28,066 bases of DNA from a virus, in IMG/VR virus record IMGVR_UViG_3300034198_003282, positions 1 to 28,066 of that record; one strand, 5' to 3'. Both the position numbers and the translations under genes were made by a program. This document shows, piece by piece, positions 3,583-27,966 of this stretch. Positions within the stretch are counted from its first letter, which is position 1. The number at the start of each line of letters is the position of its first letter. The notes below the pieces were generated by a model that saw only the letters and a program-made list of their open reading frames with translations, was not told the DNA's origin and did no database searches.

Positions 3583-4456
3583 GATGACCTCCGCAGTCAG
3601 CGGGCAAGGTGCAGGTACGACCGTTTCGGCGACCGCGCCAGTTCAGACAGGTGTGGTGTCGCAGGGTGCATCCGCTGCTCCGGTAGAGCAGCCGTCAGCG
3701 TTTTCGTGGGCGCAGGGTGCGGACGAACTCACGTCTGGCTACATCCAGAACAAAGGCTGGGACAACCCGCTGAAAGCCGTCGAGTCCTACCGCAACCTGG
3801 AGAAGTTGCTGGGTGCGGATAAGGCCAACAATGCTGTCGTAATTCCAAGAGCGGATGCCGACGCGAAGGAATGGGCGGCGGTTTACGACAAGCTGGGGCG
3901 TCCATCCGCGCCGGATGGTTACAAGGTCCAGTTGCCGGAAGGTGGCGACCCTGAGTTCCACAAGGCGTCGATGGGTAAGTTCCACGAACTTGGCCTGACC
4001 CAGAAGCAGGGTGAAACCCTGATGAACTGGTACAACGAGTCCGTCATGCAGCAGATGCAGCAGGTCGAGACGCGACGTGCCGAAACCTTCAATCAGGAAG
4101 AGGCTGCGGTTCGGCAGGAGTGGGGCGCGGCTTACACCCAGAATTTGGCGCAGGCGCAGAATGCGGCGCGCGGCCTTGGCCTCAACGCCGAAACAATCGA
4201 CGCGCTTGCAGACACACTTGGTCACAAATCGACGATGAACTTGCTGGCAAAAATTGGCACCCGCCTGGGCGAAGACAGCTTCGTGTCTGGCGACGTGAAC
4301 AATTCGTTTGGCAATGCCATGACCCCGGCGCAGGCGAAGGCGCAGATCCAGAGCCTGATGTCGGACAAGGACTTCACGACGAAGTACATGTCTGGAAACC
4401 AGGACGCCAAGGCGAAGATGGCGCAGTTGCACTCATGGGCATACCCGGAAGGTTGA
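3575..4456 (+). CDS. Capsid assembly scaffolding protein
   Basis: This 293-residue acidic, helix-rich, Gln/Ala-rich protein lies between the portal and the major capsid gene, the standard place of scaffold. Scaffolds co-assemble with capsid subunits inside the procapsid and are lost before DNA fills the head. Visible parts are a low-complexity Ser/Thr/Ala N-terminus (about 1-45), a conserved block with WDNPLKAVESYRNLEKLLGA (about 65-90), GRPSAPDGYKVQLPE (about 108-125), then long helices rich in Gln and Glu (about 140-220) and a C-terminal region with MTPAQAKAQIQSLMSDKDF, which in this family probably contacts the capsid protein. It overlaps the previous gene by eight bases; its stop overlaps a small gene (TGATG). 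Confidence 0.85.
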   Translation: MSEMTSAVSGQGAGTTVSATAPVQTGVVSQGASAAPVEQPSAFSWAQGADELTSGYIQNKGWDNPLKAVESYRNLEKLLGADKANNAVVIPRADADAKEWAAVYDKLGRPSAPDGYKVQLPEGGDPEFHKASMGKFHELGLTQKQGETLMNWYNESVMQQMQQVETRRAETFNQEEAAVRQEWGAAYTQNLAQAQNAARGLGLNAETIDALADTLGHKSTMNLLAKIGTRLGEDSFVSGDVNNSFGNAMTPAQAKAQIQSLMSDKDFTTKYMSGNQDAKAKMAQLHSWAYPEG

Positions 4457-4774: not shown

Positions 4775-5731
4775 ATGTCAGTGAACGTCAATCAGGCGTT
4801 TGTCCAACAGTACTCGACGAACATTATGATGCTCCTGCAGCAGCAGGGGTCGCGTCTCCGTAATACGGTGATGAACTATTCCTTCGTGGGTAAGGCCGCT
4901 TCGATGGCTGAACAGTTCGGTCAGGTGTCGCCTGTCCGCAACCAGAGCCGTCACAGCGACACCCCGCTGATCTCCACGCCGCAGGACAAGCGTTGGATCT
5001 ACCCCAACGACTACGACTGGGCGGATCTGATCGACCAGCAGGACAGGCTGCGTATGTTGATCGACCCGGCTGGTCCGTACACCCAGGCTGGCGTCATGGC
5101 GATGGGTCGTGCCATCGACGACGAAATCATCAGCGGCTTCTTCAACGCCAACAACACGGGTGAAAACGGCACGGTTTCGACTTCGACCCTGCACGCTTTC
5201 AACTCGAACTCGCAGTCCATCGCCGCAACAACCGGCGCTGCCGCTGCTACCGGCCTCAACATCGCCAAGCTGCGAACGGCGAAGCGTCGTCTGATCGAAG
5301 CGCAGGTTGACGTGGACAGCGACCCGCTGTTTGCGATCATCAGCGCCAAGCAGCACGACGATCTGCTCAACGAAGCGCAGGCTGTCTCGCTCGACTACAA
5401 CACCCAGCCGGTGTTGGTGAACGGCAAGATTTCCTCGTTCATGGGCTTCAACTTCATCCTGTCTGAGCGTATCCCCGGCGGTTCCGGCTTCAACGCCGCA
5501 ATCAACCCGGCCATCGCTACCGGCTCGTCGGACGGCAACTATACCACTGGCTCGCGCTGGATGGTTCCGTGCTTTGCCAAGTCTGGCATGGCGGTGGGTA
5601 TGTGGAACGACATCCAGGCTGCGGTTGATCGTCGTCCCGACAAGCGTAACTCCTGGCAGGTCTACGTCACCGCAACGGTTGGCGCGGCCCGTCTTGAAGA
5701 GCGCCGTTGTCTTCTCATCAACTGCGTCTAA
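4775..5731 (+). CDS. Major capsid protein
   Basis: This 318-residue protein forms the capsid shell. It is recognised from its family pattern: N-terminal VNQAFVQQYSTNIMMLLQQQ, then PQDKRWIYPNDYDWADLIDQQDRLRMLIDP, and YTQAGVMAMGRAIDDEIISGFF in the middle. These are typical of HK97-fold capsid proteins of BPP-1-like and related podoviruses. The C-terminal part contains GSRWMVPCFAKSGMAVGMWNDIQAAVDRRPDKRNSWQVYVTATVGAARLEERR, the usual closing beta-rich region. A 109-base gap precedes it, the largest in the head region, with gaaagg as ribosome-binding site eight bases upstream. It is followed after ten bases by a cement-like protein. High certainty. Confidence 0.92.
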   Translation: MSVNVNQAFVQQYSTNIMMLLQQQGSRLRNTVMNYSFVGKAASMAEQFGQVSPVRNQSRHSDTPLISTPQDKRWIYPNDYDWADLIDQQDRLRMLIDPAGPYTQAGVMAMGRAIDDEIISGFFNANNTGENGTVSTSTLHAFNSNSQSIAATTGAAAATGLNIAKLRTAKRRLIEAQVDVDSDPLFAIISAKQHDDLLNEAQAVSLDYNTQPVLVNGKISSFMGFNFILSERIPGGSGFNAAINPAIATGSSDGNYTTGSRWMVPCFAKSGMAVGMWNDIQAAVDRRPDKRNSWQVYVTATVGAARLEERRCLLINCV

Positions 5732-5741
5732 GAGGTGACAC

Positions 5742-6212
5742 ATGCCCGCATATATTTCGGCTGAACTTTCAGGAACGAACGGCGCGTCCGGTTCGGTCCT
5801 GACCACTGCCCCGGCTGGTTACAAGCCGCGTGCAACGGTGCAGGGAGGGCGCGTCAAGCGCCTTCGCGGCACCTTCACGCTGTCGGCCACGGCGGTCACG
5901 ACCTCCGACACCTTGGTGATCGGAACGCTGCCCGCTGGCTCGACGTTCGCCTTTGGCGTCATCACGGCTTCGGCCACGATGGGCGCTTCGGCAACGCTTG
6001 CCATCGGCACGACCGGCGCAACCGGCAAGTACCGCGCCGCTGCGACGTTTACCGTCGCCGACACGCCGACCATGTTCGGTGTGAACACGGCGGTGGGCGC
6101 TGCTGACCCGGCTCTGTCTGCCGACGAGCAGGTCTTCATCACGATTGCCGCCGCGTCTCTCCCGACCGCTGGCACGCTGATCGTGGACCTGTTCTACTCG
6201 GCCCCGAACTAA
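5742..6212 (+). CDS. Capsid decoration/cement protein (Bbp16-like)
   Basis: This 156-residue protein is rich in Ala, Thr, Gly and beta-strand patterns with no long charged helices, and directly follows the major capsid gene with its own ribosome-binding site (agaggtgac). In BPP-1 the gene after the capsid (Bbp16) encodes the cement protein that clamps capsid subunits from outside; position, size and sequence character here agree. Visible blocks are an N-terminal segment (SAELSGTNGASGSVLT), RVKRLRGTFTLSATAV around 38-55, repeated ATLAIGTTGATGKYRAAATF, and a C-terminal DLFYSAPN. The gene ends eight bases before a strong hairpin. The family assignment is by context and recall. Confidence 0.7.
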   Translation: MPAYISAELSGTNGASGSVLTTAPAGYKPRATVQGGRVKRLRGTFTLSATAVTTSDTLVIGTLPAGSTFAFGVITASATMGASATLAIGTTGATGKYRAAATFTVADTPTMFGVNTAVGAADPALSADEQVFITIAAASLPTAGTLIVDLFYSAPN

Positions 6213-21689: not shown

Positions 21690-22205
21690 ATGCGGGAGAA
21701 TTTCAGGAGGGCTTTCGAGGCGGTCCTTAAACACGAGGGTGGTTACTCGGCCCACCCTCTCGACCCAGGCGGCGTAACCAACCTCGGCGTTACCAAGAAC
21801 GTCTGGCAGCATTGGGTAGGGCATCGGGTCAGCAACGACCAGATGCTGGCCCTCACGAAGGAAGACGTTGAGCCGCTTTACCGCGCCCACTTCTGGGACC
21901 GGATACGCGGCGACGAACTGCCGTCAGGCATCGACTACGTTATCTTTGACGCTGCCGTTAACTCTGGGCCAACGCGGGCCATCCGCTGGGCGCAGCAGGT
22001 GCTGGGCGTCGAACAGGACGCCAAGCTGGGACCAAGGACGATGGCCGCGATCCAGAAGGCAGACCGCCACAAGTTCATAGATGATTACTGTCTGAGGCGG
22101 TTGGGCTTCATGCAGCGCCTTCCGATCTGGACCACCTTCGGCAAGGGGTGGCGGCGGCGGGTCGATGAGGTCGAGGTTGCGGCCAGATCATTGGTCGCAA
22201 CCTGA
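21690..22205 (+). CDS. Endolysin, GH108-type N-acetylmuramidase
   Basis: This 171-residue protein hydrolyses peptidoglycan glycan strands at the end of infection. The family is recognised from LKHEGGYSAHPLDPGGVTNLGVT, with E16 in HEGGYS as catalytic residue, then YRAHFWDRIRGDELPSGIDYVIFDAAVNSGP (about 69-100). The second half (RAIRWAQQVLGV..DAKLGPRTMAAI) is the peptidoglycan-binding segment typical of this family. There is no signal peptide or N-terminal membrane anchor, so export depends on the holin just upstream. No Rz/Rz1 spanin genes are seen after it; the next stretch holds inverted repeats and the convergent integrase gene. Confidence 0.92.
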   Translation: MRENFRRAFEAVLKHEGGYSAHPLDPGGVTNLGVTKNVWQHWVGHRVSNDQMLALTKEDVEPLYRAHFWDRIRGDELPSGIDYVIFDAAVNSGPTRAIRWAQQVLGVEQDAKLGPRTMAAIQKADRHKFIDDYCLRRLGFMQRLPIWTTFGKGWRRRVDEVEVAARSLVAT

Positions 22206-22293: not shown

Positions 22294-23415
22294 CTAGCCC
22301 CGCTCTCCCTCCAGAGCGGGGCTTTTTCTTTGCATTGCGATCATGATGCGGTCGGCGGTGGCGGTGGCCGCAGCCGTTGCTGCTTCCTCAACCAAGTGAG
22401 CATACCGCTTCGTGGTCTGCGTGGACTTGTGGCCCAGGAGTTCGCCGATCTGGCCCAGCGTCAGACCAGCGGACAGGGCCGCAGACGCAAACGAGTGCCG
22501 CAGGTCGTGCATCCGCAGGTCGGGACAACCAGCCTCAGTCCGCACCCGCTCCCACAATTTCTGCGGGGTCAGGATGCCGGTAATGGTGCCGGATGTGCGC
22601 GGCAGGCGGTCCAGAACGTCGCGCGCTGGCTCTGGCAGGTAGACCTGTTTCTCGCCCGTCTTGGAGTCTGGAAGGTGAATTGAGGCTCCGCTAATCCACT
22701 CCCAGCGCGCCGCCGCGATCTCGCCCTTGCGCGCGCCGGTCAGGATCAGGAGGTACAAGAACGCCACGGACGCCGGGTTGGCGGCGGCTTCCCGGTCCAA
22801 TATCTCGGCAATGCGTGCCGTCTCCTCGCCCGTCATGTAGCGGCGGCGTTTGTTTTCCTTGTACCGCTTCACGCCCCGGACGGGGGATCTCTCGATCCAC
22901 TCCAGCGGGCGGCAACCGAAGTTGAACATGCCCGACAGGAACGCCAAGACGCGGTTGGCTTCGATGGGGGTGCCCGCCATCCCTTCGTGGATGTCGGCAA
23001 TCATGGAGTACGTCACGTCGGCCACCTTCATGCGGCCAAGGCGTGGCTCGATGTGTAGCTTCCACTGCCTCTCGTAAGTGCTACCACTTTTGATACGCGA
23101 GGCGTGCCGTTGGTAGTACTCCTTCCAGAGGTCGGCGACGGTGGGGGCGGCGCGCTCCTCGGCGCGGTCGCGCGATGGGTCGCGGCCAGCGGCCACTTCG
23201 GCCAGCCACTCCTGCGCCACACGTCGCGCCTGGACCAGCGTGATCTGCCCGTGGGTGCCCAGCTTCGGCTTCCTCTGCTCGCCGCCCTTGGTGCGGTAGA
23301 ACAGGTAGAACCCGGCGCTCTCTTCAAAGACCCGCAGGTGCAGCCCGCGCACGGTCTTGTCGCGCAGGATGTCACCGGGCTTGGCGGTCCTGATATTCTT
23401 TTCGTTGAGTTCCAT
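22294..23415 (-). CDS. int: Tyrosine-family integrase
   Basis: This 373-residue site-specific recombinase inserts the phage into the host tRNA gene. Residues 1-90 match the N-terminal arm-binding domain of P4-type integrases (RDKTVRGLHLRVFEESAGFYLFYR), 91-180 the core-binding domain (VADLWKEYYQRHASRIKSGSTYERQW), and 190-373 the catalytic domain. All catalytic residues are visible: R229 (TGARKGE), K252 (DSKTG), H303 and R306 (HDLRHSFAS), H329 (LGHK) and the nucleophile Y338 (TTKRYAHL). The start ATG has an aggagg ribosome-binding site that abuts one of the TGGTC repeats. Its promoter candidates lie in the attP region just upstream. The 3' end overlaps the late terminator. Confidence 0.95.
   Translation of the reverse strand: MELNEKNIRTAKPGDILRDKTVRGLHLRVFEESAGFYLFYRTKGGEQRKPKLGTHGQITLVQARRVAQEWLAEVAAGRDPSRDRAEERAAPTVADLWKEYYQRHASRIKSGSTYERQWKLHIEPRLGRMKVADVTYSMIADIHEGMAGTPIEANRVLAFLSGMFNFGCRPLEWIERSPVRGVKRYKENKRRRYMTGEETARIAEILDREAAANPASVAFLYLLILTGARKGEIAAARWEWISGASIHLPDSKTGEKQVYLPEPARDVLDRLPRTSGTITGILTPQKLWERVRTEAGCPDLRMHDLRHSFASAALSAGLTLGQIGELLGHKSTQTTKRYAHLVEEAATAAATATADRIMIAMQRKSPALEGERG
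22296..22328 (+). terminator. Rho-independent terminator of the late unit
   Basis: A perfect 11-bp stem, AGCCCCGCTCT (22296-22306) with AGAGCGGGGCT (22313-22323), has a 6-base loop and is followed on the plus strand by TTTTCTTT. It stops late transcription before it runs through the integrase region. The stem lies inside the last codons of the convergent integrase gene (residues SPALEGERG). In the minus direction no T-tract follows, so it acts mainly for the plus strand. Confidence 0.9.
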
Positions 23416-23424
23416 CGACCCCTC

Positions 23425-23504
23425 CTGGTCGCATACTGGTCGCGCTGGTCAGTGAAGAACCGTGAGCGCCGTATGCCGTAACACACTGATCTGAATATGG
23501 TCAG
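23425..23504. repeat. TGGTC repeats, integrase arm-type site candidates (P arm)
   Basis: Four copies lie between the integrase start and the tRNA fragment: CTGGTCGC at 23425, CTGGTCGC at 23436, CTGGTCAG at 23445 and ATGGTCAG at 23497. The last two extend to TGGTCAGTGA. The first three are spaced 11 and 9 bases, about one helical turn. All have the same orientation. A fifth copy lies beyond the core at 23646. This fits arm-type sites for the integrase N-terminal domain. Confidence 0.6.
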
Positions 23505-23523
23505 TGATGCAGGGTGATGTCAA
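23494..23523 (-). promoter_or_regulatory. Sigma70-like promoter for integrase (inner)
   Basis: On the minus strand a perfect -35 TTGACA (23518-23523) is followed after 18 bases by CATATT (23494-23499, 4 of 6 matches to the -10 consensus). The -10 overlaps the TGGTCAGTGA repeat at 23497-23507, so binding of integrase or another protein there could repress it. The start of transcription would lie about 70 bases before the integrase ATG. Confidence 0.5.
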
Positions 23524-23549
23524 TATATCCAAACAAGAAAGACTGTTAA
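23522..23549 (-). promoter_or_regulatory. Sigma70-like promoter for integrase (outer, overlapping the att core)
   Basis: On the minus strand TTAACA (23544-23549, 5 of 6 matches) and TATATT (23522-23527, 5 of 6) are 16 bases apart. The -35 is the complement of the anticodon-loop sequence of the tRNA-Asn fragment, and the -10 overlaps the -35 of the inner promoter. Whether both, one or neither is used cannot be told from sequence. Confidence 0.5.
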
Positions 23550-23587
23550 TCGTGTTGTCGCAGGTTCGAGTCCTGCTCGGGGAGCCA
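23541..23587 (+). other. attP: attP core: 3' half of a tRNA-Asn(GTT) gene
   Basis: These 47 bases read as the 3' part of a tRNA: GACTGTTAATC is the anticodon arm with loop CTGTTAA (anticodon GTT, Asn), GCAGG-TTCGAGT-CCTGC is a perfect T arm, and TCGGGGA-G-CCA is the 3' acceptor strand, discriminator and encoded CCA. No D arm or 5' acceptor strand (expected TCCCCGA) lies upstream, so it is not a full tRNA gene. Tyrosine integrases commonly use tRNA 3' ends, and the phage copy restores the host gene after integration. It lies 125 bases before the integrase start. Confidence 0.88.
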
Positions 23588-23609: not shown

Positions 23610-23642
23610 GCTTCCTTAACCACGATCAGAACCTTTGGCCGC

Positions 23643-23843
23643 TTACTGGTCGCTGCCAACCACGCTACGGCGCAGCGCCTGCTCCTCGTAAGCCTGGACC
23701 TCGGCAATCGGATACAGGATCTTCTTGCCGATCTTCAGAAAGCCGGGGCCTTCGCCCCTGTGTCTCCAGTTGGCTAGCGTGCCGGGACTCATGCGCAGAC
23801 GCGAAGCCAGTTCGGGCACAGTGAGGTATTGGGGGTTGGTCAT
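23643..23843 (-). CDS. Small helix-turn-helix DNA-binding protein, excisionase-like (AlpA/HTH_17 type)
   Basis: This 66-residue protein has the winged-helix pattern of AlpA and small excisionases: LTVPELASRLRMSPGTLANWRHRGEGPGFLKIGKKILYPIAEVQAYEEQ. The helix-turn-helix is at about 8-27, followed by W-R-x-x-G-x-G-P and the wing K-I-G-K-K-I-L-Y. I chose the ATG at 23843 because GGAAGGAG precedes it by six bases; a start further upstream would run through the primase end without such a site. It follows the primase stop by two bases and faces the attP region. Role as recombination directionality factor is inferred from size and place; it could also be a transcription regulator. Confidence 0.75.
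   Translation of the reverse strand: MTNPQYLTVPELASRLRMSPGTLANWRHRGEGPGFLKIGKKILYPIAEVQAYEEQALRRSVVGSDQ
23646..23653. repeat. TGGTC repeat on the far side of the att core (P' arm candidate)
   Basis: CTGGTCGC is identical to the copies at 23425 and 23436, and ACTGGTCGC is shared with the second. It lies 58 bases past the end of the tRNA fragment and encodes the last residues (SDQ) of the excisionase-like protein. Only one copy was seen on this side. Confidence 0.45.
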
Positions 23844-23845
23844 GG

Positions 23846-25999
23846 TTACTCCTTCCAATCGTGGGGACCGCCGATCCAGCGTTCCCAATCGGCCCGAAGA
23901 ATTTCGAGTCCGGGGTTGATAAACGAGTAGGTGCTCTCACCAGGCGCGCCGTCTTTGCGCACCTTGGAATAGCTGGGCGCGACGGCGCGCAGATTGCGGA
24001 AGATGTCTTTCTTGCCGGGGAGGCGCGAGCGGATGTTGCGCTGCACAGCCCAAGTCTTGAAGGCATCGGTTAAGCGTGACGTTGCGACGGACGCTGGCAG
24101 CGACCCCTCGAACCCGCCGCCGACCAGTTCGTCGATGGTGATGCAATCCAGCCACCACTCGAAGAAAGGCTCGAGGCTCTGGTGCTTCTGCTGCGTCAGG
24201 CCGGTGGTGGCCGGGGCTTTATTCAGGTCCGTGCCGTCAATGTTGTAGTCCATAAGATACCGAAGCAGGCAGGCGTACCCGCCCTGCTCCATGCCGACGC
24301 GCATGTCCTCGAAGAACTTCCTGTCCTGCTTCCTGGCGTTGCCGACGTTGAAGACCGCGAAGCGGCGCTCGTCTACGGTGGCCGGGACCAGCCAGTTGTC
24401 GTTGCCAAGGATCGCCACGCGGGTCAGGTTATCGACCCGGTACGGCTCCATGCCTTTGCGCTCGATGACGTGTTCCGACCCGGTAATCAGACCCTTCAGC
24501 TTGCCCTCGGCGCGCTTGTCGCCAGCCCACGACGCCTCGTCTAGGACGAAGAACAGGTTGCTCTCAAGGTGGGAATTAAAGTTGGACAGCAGGTAGCGTT
24601 CATCGTCAGCCACCAGGAAGTGGGTGCCCAGCAGGAAACCCACGCGCTCGACCAGCGCATTTTTTCCGGTGCCCTTGTCGCCTTTAAAGACGAGCGCCGT
24701 CAGCGGCTTTTTCCCTGGGCGCTGGATCAGGTGGGCGAAATAACTGGTCAGCCAGTGCGCGCTCGCTTCCTTGCCCTCGCATACGTTTTGCAACATATGT
24801 TCCCGAAATGCATGGACGGACGGGTGGTCCGACGTGTCGGCTGGGGCAACGGTAAAGCCGCGCCATAGGTTGTAGAACCTGGCGTGCAGATTGTTGAGCG
24901 GCGAGAAGACCACGCGGTCGTATTCCCGGCGCTGGGCATCCGCCATCCATAGCTTGCTCAGCGGCACAGACTTGTCGTTCACCATGATGGTCTTGTTGGC
25001 GAACCAGGCGTGCATGTCGCTGGGGGAAAGACGGATGGTGTCGAACCGACCGTGGATGTCCGTGGTTTCCTGAAGGACGAACGCGCCCGACTTGATAAAG
25101 GCGTACTCGTCGTTAAGGGCGCGCACCGGGTGCGGTGGATCTTCGTCTTTACCGTCTTTGTTCTCGACCTTCTCGAACGCAGCTTCCGGCGCGCGGCTTC
25201 CCACCGGCTCGCGGCCATAGCGGTAGGCGTTGCGCACTTTGGTCCGAAGATCGGCGTCACTCCACGGCGGGGAGCATCGTTCGTTCCACTCGTCCCTGAG
25301 AAGTTCAAACGCGCGCTCTTCCGCGCATCCAAAATCTTTCAGGGCGGCGACCACCTTGAACGTCGTGTGATCGCCGCCCTGCCCCTCAATAGCTACGAGA
25401 GCATCGGCCAGATATACACGAGCGCGATCATCTGCACGACTGCTTGAAACACCGCCCACAGGAGCAGGAACATCACGACGTGATCCGTCGTCAACCCCAC
25501 ACCTCTCGACCATCCATTCCGGCGCGCGCTGAACCTGGAGCGCATTCGCCCGGTATAGTCTGCCGTCGATTTCAGAATCGGGTCCAACAACATACCCACC
25601 CCGTGACCTGATGTCGATGCCAGGTCCGAATTTGTTGACACCCTGACGGACGGGCGCGGGGACGGAGTAAATGAGATGTCTTCCTCCGCTCGGGGTGGAT
25701 TGCTCGAAGGTGGCTGGTAGTTCGTGTCCTTCAAGTTCGAGAGTAATGATCGTATGCTCGCCATTGTTCGCTCCTTTCGTATCAACATCCACCACCAACA
25801 ACGCTTCGTTGTCTTTGTACCGCGTCGTACTGATACCGATGTTCCGCGTACCGTCCTCGAACCACCGCTGGATCTGCGCGCGGTCGCGCGTGGCGCGGTT
25901 CGGGAAATCGTTGATGACGGGCAGCTTGCTATTGGGCCGCACCGGAAACACATGAAAACCACGCGCTGCGAGATCAAGCGCCCTTGCCAACCTGCTCAT
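23846..25999 (-). CDS. Primase-helicase: prim-pol domain fused to SF3-type ATPase
   Basis: This 717-residue replication protein has an N-terminal bifunctional primase/polymerase domain (about 1-170): GFHVFPVRPNSKLP, catalytic acids in VVDVDTKG (D71, D73), then STPSGGRHLIY (101-111, with H108) and GIDIRSRGGYVVGP (127-140). A linker with a helical region (about 190-265) leads to a phage/plasmid-type helicase ATPase with Walker A GDKGTGKN (440-447) and Walker B LFFVLDEAS (482-490), followed by AILGNDNWLVPATVDERRFAVF, containing sensor-like residues. It would prime and unwind the phage DNA for the polymerase next to it. Its start overlaps the polymerase stop (ATGA), indicating translational coupling. 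No defect seen. Confidence 0.88.
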   Translation of the reverse strand: MSRLARALDLAARGFHVFPVRPNSKLPVINDFPNRATRDRAQIQRWFEDGTRNIGISTTRYKDNEALLVVDVDTKGANNGEHTIITLELEGHELPATFEQSTPSGGRHLIYSVPAPVRQGVNKFGPGIDIRSRGGYVVGPDSEIDGRLYRANALQVQRAPEWMVERCGVDDGSRRDVPAPVGGVSSSRADDRARVYLADALVAIEGQGGDHTTFKVVAALKDFGCAEERAFELLRDEWNERCSPPWSDADLRTKVRNAYRYGREPVGSRAPEAAFEKVENKDGKDEDPPHPVRALNDEYAFIKSGAFVLQETTDIHGRFDTIRLSPSDMHAWFANKTIMVNDKSVPLSKLWMADAQRREYDRVVFSPLNNLHARFYNLWRGFTVAPADTSDHPSVHAFREHMLQNVCEGKEASAHWLTSYFAHLIQRPGKKPLTALVFKGDKGTGKNALVERVGFLLGTHFLVADDERYLLSNFNSHLESNLFFVLDEASWAGDKRAEGKLKGLITGSEHVIERKGMEPYRVDNLTRVAILGNDNWLVPATVDERRFAVFNVGNARKQDRKFFEDMRVGMEQGGYACLLRYLMDYNIDGTDLNKAPATTGLTQQKHQSLEPFFEWWLDCITIDELVGGGFEGSLPASVATSRLTDAFKTWAVQRNIRSRLPGKKDIFRNLRAVAPSYSKVRKDGAPGESTYSFINPGLEILRADWERWIGGPHDWKE

Positions 26000-27966
26000 T
26001 TGCGATACCTGAACCCCCGCCAGCCTTCAGCCGCCAGCGGCAAATCTTTTGCCCACGATGGGGGCGTTGCCACAATCTTCTCTATCTTCTTCAGCGTGTC
26101 GGCTGGCGCTTCGCGCGACACCTCGACCACGATCTCGTCGTGGACGTGCATCACGATCTGATAGCCAGCGGCTTCAAGGCGCAGCATCGCCTCTGCCAGA
26201 AGATCACGCGCCACCGCCTGGGTGACGTTCTCCGCCAGCGACCCGCCGTAGGTAGACGTTTCTTCCCAATGATTGCCAAGGGATACGGCGTGATAGTGCA
26301 GCGCGCTGCGCGGCTCTCCCCATGGCGTCGGGGTCTGCCGGATCATCGGGTACGGATAACACAGCACCCGACCGCTTGGCAGTTTGCACCAGAGGAACGA
26401 ACCTTCCCGCCTGAACGCTACCTCGCGCCCCGGATGACCAGCGAACGTCGTGGTGTCCGCGTCGATGGCGTCGATCGCTGCGGTTTCCAGTTCGCGCCAG
26501 TACTGCGCGATCTTCGGATGAGACGCGCGCCACTTGGTCTTGATGTCGTCGGCGCGCTGGTCATCGACGTTGACGCCATAGACCCGCGCCATGCTCTGGA
26601 ATGCGCCAACACCACCACCGAACCCCAGGGCGAGGACTGCGACCTTACCGATCTGTCTCTCGTCCTTGGTCACGGCGTCGATGGGTTTGCCGTAGATACC
26701 GGCGGCAGCGTGTTCGTATATCTTTCCGTGGGTACGGAAGATGTCGAGAACCTTCTCCTCACCCGCCAGCCACGCCAGAACGCGCGCTTCGACCGCTGAG
26801 AAATCGACCGCGATTAACTCACAGCCTTTGTCTGCGGTAATCATACCGCGCACACAATCAGCCAGCGCTGCCATCACAGGTCCGTAGTAGATGTCGATGT
26901 AATCCCGATCCGCGATGTTCTTGATGATGTCCTCGATGTGATCGGGCTTTATATCGGGACGCGGGCGCGGAAGGTTTCCAGGCTGCACGCCACGGTGCGC
27001 CCAGCGCCCGGTGGTAGCGCCGTGGTACTGGAAGCTGTCGTTCACGCGATGGGTGTCGCGGCCAGCCCGATCCCGCATCGCCGCGAGTTTCGCCGTCGAA
27101 GACTTCGCGGCTTCACGCCGGATATTCAACGCCTCGCGTACATTTTCCGGCAGTGACGTTGTGTTCAGCGCGTCCAGCACATCGGCTTTTCCGACGCTCT
27201 CAAGAGCCACGCCCTGCTTCTTGATCCACTTCACCAGCGCCTGGACCTCGGTGCAGCGACCGACCTCGCCGTTGGTGACGTGCAACATCTCGGCGTCGAG
27301 CCGTTGTTTCTCCGCGTTGACCAGCCAGATCGCGCTATTGATTGCGCTCACATCAACGCGGATGCCGCGCTCGTTTATCTTCCGGTCGAGCAACCAGACC
27401 TCGCGTTCCTTCGGCGACAGCTTCATCAGCCGCTTGTCCAGTTCTCGCTCCACCGCCACGTCTTGGCGGCAGTAGTCGAACAGGCGCTCAAACTTCTCGG
27501 GGTTGTCGGAGTAGGACCAGAGCGTGCCGTCTGGCTTTGTCCGCGCAAGCTGCATCATCACGCGCGAGCCAGCCATGTCCTTTGTCTCGGCGATACCCAG
27601 CGCAGGAGCGGCCTTCTCAAGAGACGCTGGCAGACCCATCGCGTAGCACTGCGCCATCGTGCAGCGCATCTGCTCTGGCTTCAGGCGCGGCCATCCGTAT
27701 TTCGGCACGCACACGTTGTTCCAGATCGCGAGTTCGAAGGGTGCATTGTGCGCCACCACCTCGCCGCCGCGCTCGACGTGTTCAAAGAGTTCCGGGCAAT
27801 CGGTCAGCGCGCCGCCAATGTCGGCGATGAGGCTCACCTCATCGTCGCCAAACACAAAGCCCAGGCAATGGACTTTCGTTGACGGATGACGGGTATAGTT
27901 GTCCAGACCCACCACGGGCAGATCCGCCTCGCTGGCTGTCTCGAAGTCGATGTGAAGAATGTTCAT
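25996..27966 (-). CDS. DNA polymerase, family A, with 3'-5' exonuclease domain
   Basis: This 656-residue replicative polymerase resembles T7-like phage enzymes in length. The exonuclease domain shows Exo I DFETAS (D7, E9), Exo II HNAPFELAIW with E78 where D is usual, and Exo III YCRQD (Y165, D169). The polymerase domain has motif A AVDFSAVEARVLAWLAG (D388), motif B RQIGKVAVLALGFGGG (R437, K441, F449, as in E. coli Pol I rather than the Tyr of T7) and motif C HVHDEI (D610, E611). It has only a weak ribosome-binding site and starts 21 bases after the methyltransferase gene, so it is probably in the same operon; it overlaps the primase gene by four bases. Confidence 0.93.
   Translation of the reverse strand: MNILHIDFETASEADLPVVGLDNYTRHPSTKVHCLGFVFGDDEVSLIADIGGALTDCPELFEHVERGGEVVAHNAPFELAIWNNVCVPKYGWPRLKPEQMRCTMAQCYAMGLPASLEKAAPALGIAETKDMAGSRVMMQLARTKPDGTLWSYSDNPEKFERLFDYCRQDVAVERELDKRLMKLSPKEREVWLLDRKINERGIRVDVSAINSAIWLVNAEKQRLDAEMLHVTNGEVGRCTEVQALVKWIKKQGVALESVGKADVLDALNTTSLPENVREALNIRREAAKSSTAKLAAMRDRAGRDTHRVNDSFQYHGATTGRWAHRGVQPGNLPRPRPDIKPDHIEDIIKNIADRDYIDIYYGPVMAALADCVRGMITADKGCELIAVDFSAVEARVLAWLAGEEKVLDIFRTHGKIYEHAAAGIYGKPIDAVTKDERQIGKVAVLALGFGGGVGAFQSMARVYGVNVDDQRADDIKTKWRASHPKIAQYWRELETAAIDAIDADTTTFAGHPGREVAFRREGSFLWCKLPSGRVLCYPYPMIRQTPTPWGEPRSALHYHAVSLGNHWEETSTYGGSLAENVTQAVARDLLAEAMLRLEAAGYQIVMHVHDEIVVEVSREAPADTLKKIEKIVATPPSWAKDLPLAAEGWRGFRYRK

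Follow-up and report, generated by a model that had tools for sequence, protein, structure and literature searches.

A predicted phage attachment site built on the 3' part of tRNA-Asn(GTT), with a host link to Methylocystis through related phages

Results

Gene content of the integration locus

The window, by which we mean the whole 28,066-base stretch analysed here, is a virus record of about 60% G+C, a linear fragment in whose full length no terminal repeat was found. Its left side encodes terminase, portal, capsid, tail, internal virion protein and endolysin, followed by a convergent integrase gene, an intergenic region containing the tRNA fragment described below, and, on the right, genes for a small HTH protein and replication functions (Table 1). 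The portal protein finds its nearest relatives in a 38.7-kb uncultured phage (52%) and in Stenotrophomonas, BcepC6B and HTVC010P-type phages, and no DNA-level likeness was found among phages of the GenBank collection. A related phage, L155 (IMGVR_UViG_2896377244_000001, probably isolate-derived), carries a complete tRNA-Asp gene at 5674-5749, between terminase and portal.

The integrase is intact, having its arm-binding domain and the complete R-H-R-H-Y set of catalytic residues. Its reading frame starts at 23415 on the minus strand, leaving a gap (23416-23540) of exactly the 125 bases that the original prediction had placed between integrase and tRNA fragment. The likelier start of the HTH_17 reading frame is the ATG at 23843. 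Two adjacent promoter-like sites for int occur at 23494-23549 on the minus strand, compared with 0.3 expected in shuffled sequences. The one nearer int is a candidate promoter that integration would leave attached to int; the -35-like hexamer of the upstream site lies inside the anticodon-loop core, so that integration would put this hexamer in the recombined core. We also considered that int might be expressed solely from the circular form, as attP parts int from xis, but this is unnecessary, the P arm itself containing a promoter-like site.

Table 1. Features of the integration locus and of duplicated tRNA-Asn ends in Methylocystis genomes
Feature	Coordinates	Strand	Remarks
Phage endolysin (Glyco_hydro_108)	21690..22205	+	Left phage side
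Tyrosine integrase, 373 aa	22294..23415	-	Arm-DNA-bind_3 and Phage_integrase domains; R229, H303xxR306, H329, Y338 present
Terminator-like stem-loop	22296..22323	+	Between convergent lysis gene and int
P arm, two putative arm-type sites TGGTCGC	23426..23443	+	11-base period; start -115 from core
Candidate int promoter, sigma-70-like TTGACA-18-CATATT	23494..23523	-	Between core and integrase; consensus match only
tRNA-Asn(GTT) 3' part	23541..23587	+	Block common to attP and attB; would restore host tRNA after integration
Inferred crossover core, anticodon stem-loop, GACTGTTAATC	23541..23551	+	Kept in related attP including tRNA-Lys; all that L007 keeps
P' arm, putative arm-type sites TGGCCGC/TGGTCGC	23636..23653	+	11-base period; start +95 from core start
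HTH_17 protein, likely excisionase	23643..23888	-	PHROG 66 (excisionase)
Phage primase/helicase (Prim-Pol, DUF5906)	23846..25999	-	Right phage side
Phage DNA polymerase A	25996..27966	-	Right phage side
Duplicated tRNA-Asn ends, Methylocystis	G004:C53:51987-90461		L186-L188; 38.4 kb
Duplicated tRNA-Asn ends, Methylocystis	G210:C21:69356-86690
Duplicated tRNA-Asn ends, Methylocystis	G027:C6:395922-410762
Duplicated tRNA-Asn ends, Methylocystis, further	G098:C1:788792-794434
Duplicated tRNA-Asn ends, Methylocystis, further	G248:C1:2349067-2350368

The tRNA-Asn block

The 47 bases at 23541-23587 read GACTGTTAATCGTGTTGTCGCAGGTTCGAGTCCTGCTCGGGGAGCCA and constitute a 3' tDNA fragment that reaches the end of the tRNA and has no 5' half, as originally described; ARAGORN likewise finds no whole tRNA in the window. 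The fragment contains the loop CTGTTAA with anticodon GTT at 23545-23547, a T arm (GCAGG-TTCGAGT-CCTGC, 23560-23576) in which all five stem pairs form, the acceptor 3' strand TCGGGGA (23577-23583), and then G73 and CCA. Because the 47-mer differs from genuine tRNA-Asn genes of several genera by only one to three mismatches, and recurs unchanged at the same place in two other virus contigs (L002, L003), it is not a chance resemblance. Chimeras joining the block to the 5' halves of four Beijerinckiaceae/Methylobacteriaceae tRNA-Asn genes are each called as tRNA-Asn(gtt) by ARAGORN, and the acceptor 5' strand of these four genes is TCCCCGA, precisely the strand that had been predicted for the host. 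Integration would thus be expected, by prediction only, to restore a functional tRNA.

Arm-type repeats

A script seeking repeats of 11-base period on either side of the core located one tandem pair in each arm, and such GGNCGC pairs number two only in the whole window. Paired repeats are the arrangement expected of arm-type sites for an integrase that binds two kinds of site, and with 23541-23587 as core they would delimit a complete attP of about 228 bases. The geometry recurs in relatives: tandem pairs lie at -115/+95 in the window, L006, L011, L197 and L205, at -114/+95 in L008, at -130/+116 in L203 and L206, and at -126/+114 in L209, with the P arm at -115 in L007 too. Since the sequence between the arms has diverged widely (the flanks of window and L008 differ at 26-27% of positions), function probably maintains this spacing. 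The repeats of the two arms mostly change in step: they read TGGTCGC, but AGGTCGC in L008, TGGTAGC in L197 and TGGTCAC in L209. The outer site of the window's P' arm (23636-23642) reads TGGCCGC, compared with TGGTCGC in L005 and L006, possibly an arm mutation.

Blocks of related phages and the probable crossover position

We compared this intergenic region over eight integrase relatives in virus contigs, plus more from a profile search. A tRNA 3' part occurs at the same place in every close relative whose upstream region is available, except L007. The window, L002 and L003 have one block allele in common. L006, with an integrase 96% identical, has another, differing by six changes that include a compensated T-stem pair, and this second allele is also present in L008 and L012 (integrase 76%) and in L197-L200 (65%). 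Compensated variants of the T stem among the blocks comprise GCAGG/CCTGC, GTAGG/CCTAC and CCTGG/CCAGG. More distant relatives (L203, L205 and L206, integrase 51-54%; L209, 42%) have 3' fragments of tRNA-Lys(CTT) instead, some 135-200 bases upstream of int. The core common to Asn and Lys blocks is ACT[G/C]TTAATC, which differs at one base. Because this sequence is common to both kinds of block, and the first 5'-side mismatch to the host falls immediately before GACTG, we infer a crossover at the anticodon loop.

A more speculative reading, which we consider somewhat less probable than not, is that the phage acquires the whole tRNA block anew from its host, integrating at the anticodon loop but excising at a point further 3' within the repeat. 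The block would then record the tRNA-Asn allele of the last host, and a single change at anticodon position 34 would allow a move to tRNA-Lys. Divergence of block versus flank reaches significance on the xis side only (p 0.0006; int side, p 0.13), and for this reason the reading draws mainly on the compensated changes and on the exact Methylocystis match described below.

In L007 (IMGVR_UViG_3300033571_011710, 3780-3900), whose integrase is 85% identical, both the 3' half of the tRNA and the P' arm have been lost. It retains GACTGTTAATC alone of the block, the junction falls at the end of the excisionase reading frame, and that frame now stops inside GATTAACAGTC. L007 is either a natural attP-deletion phage or one with an 11-base-core site needing a phage tRNA.

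Host assignment

That the integration target is a tRNA-Asn gene, as had been proposed, is supported through the relatives, whose blocks equal the tRNA-Asn 3' end of Methylocystis. The GTAGG allele carried by L006, L008, L012 and L197-L200 matches exactly every one of the 41 copies found, which come from 35 of the 39 Methylocystis genomes; these include M. suflitae and the bog MAG bog_906. The window's own allele behaves differently. A bacterial tRNA-Asn with identical last 47 bases, which the original prediction had led us to seek, was found in 0 of 84,980 species; the exact 47-mer was likewise absent from 397, 367 and 303 genomes of the family, order and class to which Methylocystis belongs, the family and class genomes also having no copy with one mismatch or fewer, and a pattern covering the window and L011 alleles found no match in the 367 order genomes. 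Similar alleles, among the matches listed, occur with two mismatches in Beijerinckiaceae and Methylobacterium and with one in Paenibacillus (L062, L090); we set the latter aside as probably a coincidence, as the phage's relatives infect proteobacteria. The block as a handle for finding the host therefore succeeds through the relatives and fails for the window's own allele.

Because the window block joined to a Methylocystis 5' half also gives a well-paired tRNA-Asn (ARAGORN), Methylocystis itself is possible as the window's host. Judged from sequence, phages of this group appear to use tRNA-Asn, Methylocystis is the best guess at a host for carriers of the GTAGG allele, and the host of the window phage is likely a Methylocystis-related alphaproteobacterium, a link made through the relatives.

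The related prophages expected beside tRNA-Asn genes did not appear: the 397 family genomes hold no integrated copy with a close integrase (E <= 1e-80, a strict threshold; with a single genome for each species, few prophages are sampled), and a portal search of the same genomes returned relatives of 28-32% only, not this phage. Several Methylocystis genomes do have tRNA-Asn 3' ends duplicated 1.3-38 kb apart on one strand (Table 1), apparently other integrated elements in the same gene. Those in G004, G210, G027 and G098 were rejected as relatives, their integrases being at best 25-27% identical and otherwise 0 of 10 window proteins matching.

Form of the DNA and alternative explanations

Phage genes flank the block here and in sister contigs, a block occurs in 14 of 16 records and always as a single copy, and no tRNA-Asn gene was found in the relatives' loci examined. 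L003/L226 and L007 share the order endolysin, int, attP, xis, primase, polymerase, as does L006 as far as its locus reaches; L012 has this order too. Given one block per record and a constant gene order, the DNA is in excised, replicating or packaged form (indistinguishable among these), which agrees with the excised or virion form first suggested. Assemblers do err at tRNA fragments and the record is a linear fragment, but the idea that mis-assembly joined two elements at the tRNA repeat is exceedingly improbable, since the same junction occurs in three other, independent metagenome records (L002, L003, L006), apart from the gene order of L007 and L012. Nor is there any appreciable chance that the block is a regulatory RNA derived from a tRNA, or a truncated tRNA gene of the phage. 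The tRNA-Asp of L155 shows that tRNA genes can occur in phages of this group, but no relative has the 5' half, arm repeats flank the block on both sides, and it keeps a fixed position beside int that is occupied by tRNA-Lys blocks in distant relatives.

It is somewhat less far-fetched, though still very unlikely, that the block is a remnant attP, inherited from an ancestor that was temperate, in a phage that now lives lytically in practice. L007 keeps int with neither tRNA 3' half nor P' arm, the window's P' arm has one substitution (TGGCCGC) absent in L006, and the family genomes yielded no integrated relative. Against this, the catalytic residues of the window's integrase, both arms, the core and the tRNA pairing are all intact, and the block changes, compensated across relatives and matching real host genes, suggest continued use. 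The claim that attP lies in a tRNA-Asn 3' half has held up in each of these respects (intact integrase, arm repeats on both sides, tRNA blocks of relatives), and we are highly confident that the site serves as attP for a temperate, podovirus-like phage that would integrate in a host tRNA-Asn(GTT) gene via the window's own integrase.

Discussion

In the model that we favor, the integrase would bind the paired repeats at 23426-23443 and 23636-23653 plus the core, and strands would be exchanged between the anticodon-loop sequence GACTGTTAATC and its counterpart in the host tRNA-Asn(GTT) gene. The phage-borne 3' part would then make the tRNA whole at the attL side, and the host's own 3' part would be displaced to the far end, beside int. 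The restored tRNA would have the excisionase-like and replication genes as its neighbours, and the integrase would lie at the opposite end, assuming that the HTH protein acts as excisionase and that integration itself proceeds as predicted.

The site class, the mechanism and the switching of targets are already established. Mizuno et al. (2013) described cyanophage and pelagiphage contigs with an integrase and an exact tRNA 3' fragment of 39-46 bases, used for host inference (PMC3861242). The window resembles these contigs in having an integrase with a tRNA 3' fragment, and HTVC010P of that set has a related portal; that set involves tRNA-Leu or tRNA-Val with exact host matches, whereas here the gene is tRNA-Asn and an exact match exists for the sister phages only, in Methylocystis. 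In the anticodon-centred 'A' tDNA sites of Islander, used by tyrosine integrases, attP spans about 250 bases and includes a 3' tDNA fragment, the crossover is in the anticodon loop, and integrase lineages switch target tRNA genes (PMC4383910). The window's attP is like this class in size, 3' tDNA fragment, probable crossover position and target switching, and unlike those cases in that its lineage, found in genomes of podovirus type, alternates between tRNA-Asn(GTT) and tRNA-Lys(CTT), which have ACT[G/C]TTAATC in common.

Among mycobacteriophages, Boilgate (tRNA-Lys att) has a 43-base core with a few mismatches that restores the tRNA, and paired putative arm-type sites; in the Fionnbharth type the core is only about 10 bases long, leaves the tRNA unrestored and needs a phage tRNA of the same isotype (PMC10865867). 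The window is like Boilgate in its long core with a few mismatches, predicted to restore the tRNA, and in its paired putative arm-type sites. Tested against the Fionnbharth type of tRNA-dependent lysogeny it was rejected, as its block is predicted to restore the tRNA and the window has no tRNA gene. The 11-base core of L007 compares with the 10-base core of Fionnbharth, and tRNA-dependent lysogeny was set aside for L007 as well, no tRNA gene being found in its 22.9 kb contig.

New here are the phage group and its connection to Methylocystis, as well as the exact geometry of the arms and a change of target, between tRNA-Asn and tRNA-Lys, that keeps a common anticodon-loop core. In the literature searched, no temperate phage of Methylocystis with an integrase site was described. 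Methylocystis, a genus of methane-eating bacteria, is a widespread consumer of methane. The tRNA-Asn 3' end that relatives of the window have in common with it connects to a host a group of viruses that would otherwise be unplaced, and the precise geometry of the arms allows this attP to be tested directly and perhaps to serve as a tool for integration in methanotrophs.
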